DNA from: Trichococcus paludicola
GTDB taxonomy: Bacteria > Bacillota > Bacilli > Lactobacillales > Aerococcaceae
Direction of reading: 5' to 3'
Assembly: GCF_003052295.1 (NCBI RefSeq)
Contig: NZ_QBLC01000004.1
Location: 186,001-250,000, forward strand
DNA: 64,000 nucleotides
The notes under the pieces are model-generated. The model ran no database searches. It was not told the DNA's origin and was given only the letters and a program-made list of their open reading frames with translations. Position 1 is the first letter of the stretch; every line of letters begins with the position of its first letter. A program made the translations under genes and the position numbers. Positions 17,668-56,050 of the stretch are shown here, one piece after another.

Positions 17668-17875
17668 AATGTCTCCTCATCAAAAAAATAAGAGGACGGG
17701 AAAAAGCAACAATGTCACTTTTCAAGCAGAACCCGAGAGAACTTCCCCAAGTCGCGCCCCAAAACCAAAAAACTGCACGGCACACAATCCGAAACAAGCA
17801 TCCTGTACCCCACAAAAAAGTTTTGACCCAGCCTCACTACTATCCAATTGTATATTATAACCCCATTCCAGTAAC

Positions 17876-17903
17876 ATTATAAAGCATAAACCAAAAAATA
17901 CAA
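17876..17903 (-). promoter_or_regulatory. Probable promoter of the yqeG cluster
   Basis: On the minus strand, -35 TTGTAT and -10 TATAAT are separated by 16 bases. It lies just downstream of the first copy of repeat module a. The transcript would have a leader of about 200 bases that contains a stretch close to GAGGCTGGGTCAAAAC. Confidence 0.5.
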
Positions 17904-17905
17904 GA

Positions 17906-18270
17906 GCGCGATGATTCGCGCTTAGACATCCGGACGTTGGAGCAAGCGGATGACGTTCACTTCTTTTGTGGACGACAGCCACTTGCGAAACGGGAGTGGT
18001 GTCTGCGAATCAGAGCGCGTTTAAGAAGGCGCGATGCTATGCGGGAGAGTGTGATGGATCCCGGGTAGAAATCGAGCACTAAGAGGACTAACACTAAACG
18101 GACGCTTTTTGTCCGTGTGTGGTAGTCAGCTTAGGCACAGATTTCTGGGATTCAGAACACGTTTGATATGGCGCTATGTCCCTAGGCAGCTTGTCAGCTT
18201 AAGCGGAACCCCCTGCAGGCCAGAGCGCGTCTAAGAGGAGCGCGATGATTTGCGCTCAGACACCCGGACG
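17906..18270. repeat. Modular intergenic repeat, locus A (modules a-b-c-a')
   Basis: The gene-free stretch from 17668 to 18418 contains repeated modules. Module a is at 17906-17936 and again at 18240-18270 (28 of 31 bases identical). Module b is at 17985-18022 and module c at 18062-18097. Modules b and c recur at 36519-36592 in the opposite order. Several pieces can form short hairpins (for example GCGCGATGATTCGCGC and ACGGAC-GTCCGT). No protein is supported: the short reading frames across it follow the repeat. The origin is unknown. Confidence 0.8.
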
Positions 18271-18354
18271 CTGCGCTCGGGCCTGGAAATATGGATAACT
18301 TTCTCTTATTCATCTTTTCTGCCTGCGTTCACTGCTAAGATTGCTTTCACTAGC

Positions 18355-36382: not shown

Positions 36383-36388
36383 AAAGAT

Positions 36389-36441
36389 GCACTGTGATCG
36401 TAAACGACCAAGTACTCTGATGTCACAGTGCGACATCAGAG
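36389..36441 (+). terminator. Two competing hairpins after the GNAT gene
   Basis: CTCTGATGTC/GACATCAGAG (36415-36441) is a perfect 10-base stem. GCACTGTG (36389-36396) can instead pair with CACAGTGC (36424-36431), which overlaps it. There is no T run. The first hairpin may be the 3' end of the GNAT transcript. A further TGCGATT-AA-AATCGCA lies at 36486-36501. Confidence 0.5.
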
Positions 36442-36518
36442 GGCCTTACTTCAAATTGTGTAACAAGCAAAATGATGCACCCTGATGCGATTAAAATCGC
36501 AAGAGCCATAACAAATCG

Positions 36519-36592
36519 CGGGTAGAAATCGAGCACTAAGAGGACTAACACTAAGCGAAACGGTAGTGGTGTCTGCGAATCAGAACGCGTTT
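36519..36592. repeat. Modular intergenic repeat, locus B (modules c-b)
   Basis: Module c (36519-36554) is identical over 36 bases to 18062-18097. Directly joined to it is module b (36555-36592), which matches 17985-18022 at 36 of 38 bases. At locus A the order is b then c with 39 bases between. The 36383-36677 stretch holds these repeats plus hairpins and no supported gene; the 84-residue minus-strand frame across it is judged an artefact of the repeat. Confidence 0.85.
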
Positions 36593-36616
36593 GAGTATAG
36601 CGTGACAGCTCTTCGC

Positions 36617-36675
36617 AACAAAACAGGCAAAGGACACAGCCGAAGCGGCTGCTTGTCCATTGCCTGTTTTGTTGC
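36617..36675 (-). terminator. Large hairpin directly after mgtE
   Basis: GCAACAAAACAGGCAA and TTGCCTGTTTTGTTGC form a 16-base perfect outer stem, with GGACA/TGTCC-type and AGCCG/CGGCT inner pairing. It begins 2 bases after the mgtE stop codon. It probably ends the relQ-mgtE side transcript. Confidence 0.75.
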
Positions 36676-36677
36676 AC

Positions 36678-55881: not shown

Positions 55882-56050
55882 GGTCGTTCACCTCCATGAT
55901 ATTTGAGAGAAAGAACGCAGAAAAAAGTCGGCGGGTCATAATAACCCGCCGACAATACTTGCATTGCTGCAAGTTACTTGTACATATCTGGCCCAGGAAC
56001 GCAATTGTCCGCTTAGGCGAGAAGCGGGTGCTTCTGCTTAATTTCTCAAC
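55882..56050 (-). promoter_or_regulatory. L20-type leader of infC-rpmI-rplT with attenuator
   Basis: The 170-base leader contains a strong intrinsic terminator (stem GTCGGCGGGT/ACCCGCCGAC at 55927-55953, then T6) before the infC ribosome site. Upstream is a structured part with AGAAGCACCCGCTTCT and GCGGACAATTGC. Position and architecture match the L20 autoregulatory leader of Firmicutes, where L20 binding favours termination. Assignment to that RNA family is from layout. Confidence 0.78.

Follow-up and report, generated by a model that had tools for sequence, protein, structure and literature searches.

The window analysed here, a stretch of 64,000 nucleotides from Trichococcus paludicola, contains two intergenic loci that share repeated pieces in different arrangements, and the question they raise is what kind of element these pieces belong to and how they came to lie where they do. 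The first-pass annotation had described three modules, a, b and c, and direct comparison within the window reproduced its matches exactly: module c is identical at 36 of 36 positions (18062-18097 and 36519-36554), module b is equal at 36 of 38 bases (17985-18022 and 36555-36592), and module a, duplicated inside locus A, at 28 of 31 (17906-17936 and 18240-18270). The c pair is the sole exact direct repeat of at least 24 nt in the window, and the longest exact direct repeats in 20 Markov-1 surrogates measured 14-17 nt, so that this 36-base repeat is not a product of chance. The three modules did not survive as natural units; they are half-hairpins of imperfect hairpins, and what had been called short hairpins are in fact about 120 nt long (Table 1). 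Locus A (17903-18273) comprises an X element, a Y element inside an older element Z, and the 5' half of a second X. We read the Y as nested within Z, a complete relative of which aligns at L027:1403-1520. Locus B (36388-36592) comprises a W/V element followed by c, the 5' part of a Y, joined to b, the 3' part of an X. The reversed module order reported there is that of one chimeric element without a stable fold, and, as far as folding predictions go, locus B is debris and not a rearranged working unit.

Table 1. Positions, strand and basis of the features recognised at loci A and B of the window.
Feature	Position	Strand	Basis
X-type hairpin, complete (module a = 5' arm, module b = 3' arm)	17903..18022	+	alignment; fold -57.1 kcal/mol, z -5.83
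Z 5' end fragment, older Y-like element, apparently cut by Y insertion	18027..18045	+	coordinates; nesting inferred
Y-type hairpin, complete (module c within 5' arm)	18046..18164	+	G000:C4:204046-204164, 139.6 bits; fold -54.2 kcal/mol, z -7.91
Z 3' remainder, Y apparently nested inside	about 18165..18232	+	partial match L001:1782-1838; left edge approximate
5' half of second X (module a'), 3' half missing	18238..18273	+	alignment
W-type element (GCACTGTG...CATAACA) with V hairpin (CTCTGATGTC-ACAGTGC-GACATCAGAG)	36388..36513	+	read in sequence
Chimera, Y 5' part + X 3' part, no stable hairpin	36514..36592	+	fold 36512-36592: -13.4 kcal/mol, z +0.79
Terminator-type inverted repeat between convergent GNAT and mgtE, directly 3' of locus B	36613..36676	.	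read in sequence

A complete element is a single long imperfect hairpin of about 120 nt, in which a shared outer stem (5' GCGT-GA-TGAWTC and 3' GAWTCA-GA-ACGC, with tandem G.A mismatches) is combined with one of several conserved cores, namely Y, X and others. On folding, the X and the Y of locus A give one long hairpin each, with the same outer helix. Terminal inverted repeats are present, in the sense that the two ends pair with conserved G.A mismatches, and ends of matching type were found in 161 of 177 elements. No conserved reading frame was seen among the copies. A small ORF starting from the conserved ATGA of the 5' end was rejected by eye, frames and stops varying among copies, and a kink-turn reading of the GA/GA motif was likewise rejected by eye, the three-base bulge being absent.

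The structure is conserved through compensating changes. Among 30 Trichococcus Y elements, 94.9% of cells pair, double-sided changes occur in 26 of 39 pairs (shuffles 15.2, sd 1.8), and covariation amounts to 0.343 against 0.144 in shuffled alignments, a value reached by none of 500 shuffles. Outside the genus, we used 76 matches (74 distinct) from 46 of the 70 loci L270-L339, none of which had entered model building, the remaining loci being overlapping, duplicate or not needed. In these, the share of paired cells is 94.6%, compared with 54.8% after shuffling; a double-sided change is carried by 1129 cells against 325, and covariation reaches 0.963 against 0.210, with at most 0.147 on sliding of the partners; since a covariance model picked and aligned these matches, structure is favoured in all such figures. 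Less weight attaches to the finding that 39 of 39 pairs show a double change, because the shuffles average 35.0 and one of 500 reached 39. The consensus of the 76 matches retains GAGCA-TAA / TTA-GC-G.A and the GA/GA motif. As a separate observation, the element ends at L166, L210, L213 and L115 are now perfect palindromes (AGAGCGTTCTGA...), which points to hairpin-templated correction. Template switching allows hairpin DNA to correct itself, and such correction of palindromes could be the source of part of the covariation; the mismatched GA/GA and the core loops persist despite it, which suggests that they matter.

The modules are not confined to the two loci of the window. With locus A as query, BLASTN returned 18 matches at E<=0.01 in the same genome, which is 63% complete. 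It also matched each of the 12 other Trichococcus genomes searched, and none of 12 genomes from other genera of the family or of 16 others of the order. These matches across genome and genus support the view, already put forward in the first-pass annotation, of a dispersed, recombining intergenic repeat family and not a simple duplication; the copies examined sit between genes, as had been described. A covariance model built from the 30 Y elements matched 13 of 13 Trichococcus genomes, with at least 8-46 copies in each and at least 360 in all. The values per genome (at least 17, 17, 28, 39, 35, 38, 27, 27, 28, 28, 22, 8 and 46) are lower bounds, up to 150 candidates having been scored in each. 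When the pattern of the outer ends was searched in a named genome collection, 40 of the 47 stretches recovered were titled Trichococcus and the other seven Sedimentibacter sp. SX930; the three of these seven that were compared are equal in length to contigs of G012, a genome placed in Trichococcus.

The genus-only distribution given by BLASTN was overturned by the covariance model, which at E<=0.001, with nine candidates scored per genome, found matches in 12 Trichococcus genomes and in 29 further ones, or 41 of the 395 searched in the order. These span 17 of 80 genera (16 besides Trichococcus) and five families. On a deeper search, 17 matching genomes gave from at least 1 to at least 116 matches each, the latter in a genome of another family. 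Most of the matches read in family f9 have the ends AGAG[TC]G.GA ... GA[AG]C[AG]CGTTT, and several in f1, f2, f3 and f8 have more divergent ones. In a class-wide sample of 398 genomes, 5 matched: the genome studied here, another from the same order, and three from outside it, whose weak matches (39-48 bits) lack the AGAGYG ends and were therefore not accepted. No Rfam 15 family was found at locus A or B at the gathering score, and at permissive E-values the window copies gave lncRNA and miRNA models only, far below threshold; one such match (36431-36495) falls inside the W/V element, and miRNA models also match the terminator-type repeat behind locus B below threshold. A plasmid collection searched by BLASTN gave no match for a Y element or for a W-holding stretch of L168.

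In order to place the elements relative to genes, 111 Trichococcus arrays were reduced to 94 with at least 500 nt on both sides and distinct upstream sequence, and from these 10 preceded by a module or W, 5 in antisense and 4 without a recognisable 5' end were dropped. The 75 arrays kept represent 36 upstream contexts, among which are a few orthologues that failed to cluster. In 28 of the 36 contexts the element starts between -6 and +2 nt relative to the point where the stop codon of an open frame in the same sense ends, some of the stop assignments resting on short frames of 86 to 129 codons; the other eight comprise four with the stop inside the element, two with the element 7-40 nt past the stop and two without a stop. 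One of the two cases at 7-40 nt is locus A itself, whose true neighbours, thrB (3' end) and the start of yqeG, are both encoded on the opposite strand. Over the 94 arrays, 44 lie at a stop in a 9-nt window, against 12.8 expected from uniform placement over the free intergenic length. The open frame of the GNAT gene of locus B enters the element in four arrays, and in two translated orthologues (L145, L150) the frame closes at a TAA within the element, about eleven residues past the end of the window protein.

Outside Trichococcus the siting at stop codons is weaker: of 36 elements for which both ends were recognised, members from within arrays among them, 7 lie at -6 to +2 and 9 contain the stop. 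For the copy-rich genome G237 a script recognised both ends in 12 of 19 regions and placed none of the 12 at -6 to +2, six having the stop inside and the rest lying further off; by eye, two of these six elements directly follow a stop. In G237 and elsewhere, several elements come after a terminator's T-run, and two in G237 (L334, L337) are placed directly behind what we take to be the 3' end of 23S rRNA. Exact siting at the stop codon, as judged by genome comparison, is established for Trichococcus only; siting at gene 3' ends across the wider order is our impression.

The turnover of the elements was followed at orthologous genes. Eight gene ends were searched jointly in 13 genomes and 80 regions were taken for seven of them, one gene and four rows of another being left out of the regions fetched. 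Family searches named groEL, argS, gatB, a phosphoglycerate-dehydrogenase-like gene (labelled serA), a GH3 gene (Q5) and a PgpA gene (Q1); one more, which gave nothing in an NCBIfam search, is presumably a HIT gene. Behind gatB, argS, groEL and Q5, modules are present in 12 of 12 genomes examined for each, and their type and order vary among species. One of 11 genomes has nothing behind the dehydrogenase gene; the putative HIT gene has full modules in 7 of 13, only 5' fragments in two and none in four; and at Q1 a full module is present in 4 of 8, the others carrying 5' pieces or W. An X element with an identical 110-nt core was found in a single genome both in the gatB array and directly behind the argS stop (L163, L182), and its flanks follow the locus, being AT at gatB and GT at argS. 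Likewise, the joints between modules end in AT at gatB (15 of 15) and in GT at argS (18 of 19), the same dinucleotides that stand before the first module of each gene. Taking the seven loci together, 42 of 83 joints close with the dinucleotide that usually stands before the first element of their own gene (shuffled mean 11.9, maximum 24 in 20,000). In an earlier test of joints against flanks, on partly different loci, the match averaged 0.25, compared with 0.10 after shuffling (p 0.003). These comparisons support the movement of the elements as units, and the sequences at gatB and argS make a short target duplication likely there. Since the joints match in 33 of 34 cases at these two genes and in just 9 of 49 at the other five, target-site duplication is not established as a general rule, and within-locus tandem duplication could account for part of the joint pattern.

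The arrays also carry smaller pieces and decayed copies. W (GCACTGTG...CATGACA) consists of two hairpins; pieces of the W and V types were seen at 36388-36513, L002, L010, L030-L032, L043, L168 and L169, and the loop of the V hairpin, CACAGTGC, is exactly complementary to GCACTGTG of W. Both are structured pieces that substitute parts of host hairpins (X or Y) at recurrent points. Among 164 family matches, 30 are intact at the 5' end and truncated at the 3' end, two of them ending at a locus or contig edge, and 5 show the opposite; the 5' remnants often lie at the distal end of the array, adjoining the terminator. The idea of a retroelement, raised by this bias in truncation, was set aside, some of the 5' remnants resembling deletions within the hairpin between short direct repeats.

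Based on these comparisons, we consider it fairly probable that loci A and B are members or debris of a non-autonomous mobile family of hairpin repeats that lodges at gene 3' ends. The elements would transpose as units by means of an enzyme supplied in trans; in Trichococcus they would mostly settle precisely where a coding sequence ends, oriented like the gene, and pile up there head to tail. Placed directly behind the stop, often before the terminator, they should form a structured 3' end of the transcribed message, which may confer resistance to 3' exonucleases and/or slow termination, the latter being proposed because the first stem would lie inside the footprint of the terminating ribosome. 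The Trichococcus elements probably act, in this manner, on mRNA stability or termination. The family, its structure, its siting in Trichococcus, its turnover at orthologous sites and the presence of the same module behind different genes are read from sequence comparison. Against this reading stand the position of locus A, whose neighbouring genes run on the other strand, the poor agreement of joints with gene flanks away from gatB and argS, the weak siting at stops in other genera, the lack of X and Y at the Y1 loci fetched, and the share of covariation that palindrome correction could explain. The label MITE-like, given to the repeats in the first-pass annotation, is a fair one; no transposase was found, Y1 being the one class looked for.

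Selection might instead keep the hairpins at stops as a functional RNA motif of the 3'-UTR, spread by duplication, gene conversion and transfer between strains and not by transposition. This reading, which we hold to be rather unlikely, agrees with the strong structure and the unpaired bases (GA/GA, GAGCA-TAA, TTA-GC-G.A) conserved across genera, with the sense of the elements, which is that of the upstream gene in most Trichococcus cases, and with the constant occupation of the gatB, argS, groEL and Q5 ends, but the content at a given stop varies between close species, and the absence of full modules from six of the 13 HIT-labelled gene ends, four empty and two with 5' fragments, speaks against it. 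Many copies are moreover truncated, one is apparently nested and one does not fold, and at least 116 matches in one genome of another family also weigh against it.

The mobile-repeat reading may also be taken further, in a form that we regard as unlikely, the more so in view of the weaker siting at stops outside Trichococcus. Insertion would here be directed to the 3' boundary of genes, the elements being order-wide mobile structured RNAs with interchangeable cores and the target a termination intermediate, of transcription or translation: in Trichococcus the stop codon above all, elsewhere also the terminator T-run and the apparent 3' end of 23S rRNA.

An improbable alternative is a REP-like element that a REP-associated Y1 (HUH) transposase would move by acting on its single-stranded hairpins. 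GTAG REPs often provide flanking ORFs with their TAG stop (PMC3733652), and Y1 transposases were matched in 12 of 13 Trichococcus genomes. Nevertheless, the search found no Y1 match in G008, which has at least 35 copies, and no X or Y within about 1.5 kb in any of the 30 Y1 loci fetched (of 47 matches), and a Y1 transposase is disfavoured as partner by both results. The elements are also about 120 nt long against 20-40, and the bases before them vary, being GTAG at argS, ATAG at gatB and different again at other loci.

Still less credible are integron-like cassettes, in which a tyrosine recombinase would shuffle hairpins that serve as its recombination sites. Such a system would share the head-to-tail arrangement of the arrays, the 5'-end remnant that often closes them distally, their variable interiors and the differences in module order between species, but the hairpins have no genes between them and the bases between modules track the locus and not the module in gatB and argS. 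The core boxes of integron attC sites read RYYYAAC / GTTRRRY, and by inspection the ends of the elements lack them. Finally, local duplication inside the window, suggested by the 36- and 38-base pieces that the loci share, is refuted by the many matches at further places in the genome and in each of the 12 other Trichococcus genomes searched.

Several known systems resemble the family. MIRU of mycobacteria are short tandem repeats, oriented with transcription at overlapping stop and start codons, whose last copy is shorter and which have no long hairpin; compared by description, they share with the Trichococcus family the tandem arrangement at stops and the sense, but belong to another phylum and lack the long hairpin. 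BOX of pneumococcus is a modular structured intergenic repeat in which the number of boxB varies between boxA and boxC; again by description, both families are modular and found in the same order, whereas each module is here a complete hairpin. The EFAR elements of Enterococcus are reportedly (work of De Gregorio et al. in 2009) of assorted sequence types, about 170 bp long, L-shaped with two hairpins, and inserted at stem-loops, replacing the target one. They are palindromic protein-less repeats in another genus of the same order, and differ, by description, from the Trichococcus elements, which are single hairpins located mostly at stops; W, whose two hairpins replace one arm of a host hairpin, is closer to that description than X or Y. 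EFAR are palindromic, encode no protein and are counted among bacterial MITEs (PMC3733652), a class that the present family resembles in its length of about 120 nt, its lack of coding capacity, its at least 8-46 copies per Trichococcus genome and its paired ends. REP and GTAG repeats are likewise extragenic hairpins near gene 3' ends (PMC3733652, PMC12306157), and REPs within 15 nt of the stop are stated to stall ribosomes in E. coli (PMC12306157); the Trichococcus elements are three to six times longer, have no fixed GTAG tag, form head-to-tail arrays and show no linked Y1. LPSM of L. plantarum, a large cruciform-like supermotif, is a many-copy, transcribed, structured intergenic RNA of 800-1000 nt reported to be very specific to L. 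plantarum (PMC5643018), unlike the present family of about 120 nt with model matches in 17 genera. In the literature searched, whose coverage leaves most subscription papers outside, no description was recognised as that of a hairpin family of about 120 nt in Trichococcus; the kind is known, from MITE, REP, MIRU and EFAR-type repeats, and this family is apparently undescribed.

If the mobile-repeat reading is true, Trichococcus has mobile RNA hairpins directly behind the stops of gatB, argS, groEL and other genes. One and the same gene with none to several hairpins across sister species would then offer a natural series in which to gauge the effect of 3' hairpins on termination and on the life of the mRNA, and the family would be worth masking and annotating in genome and RNA-family pipelines.

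The surroundings of the loci provided some minor observations. Between the yqeG start and locus A, the stretch 17790-17902 (GTTTTGACCCAGCCTCACTACTATCC...AAAATACAAGAGCG) is very well conserved, even in the most distant Trichococcus (L139), and it contains a promoter-like site on the minus strand. A second small repeated hairpin, CTGGAAA.ATGGATAACTTTC..TTATTCATCTTTTC, lies at 18283-18319 and in the orthologues L131, L133 and L135, sometimes in tandem beside locus A. Elsewhere in the window, a ribosomal protein L20 leader was observed on the minus strand at 55914-56045.
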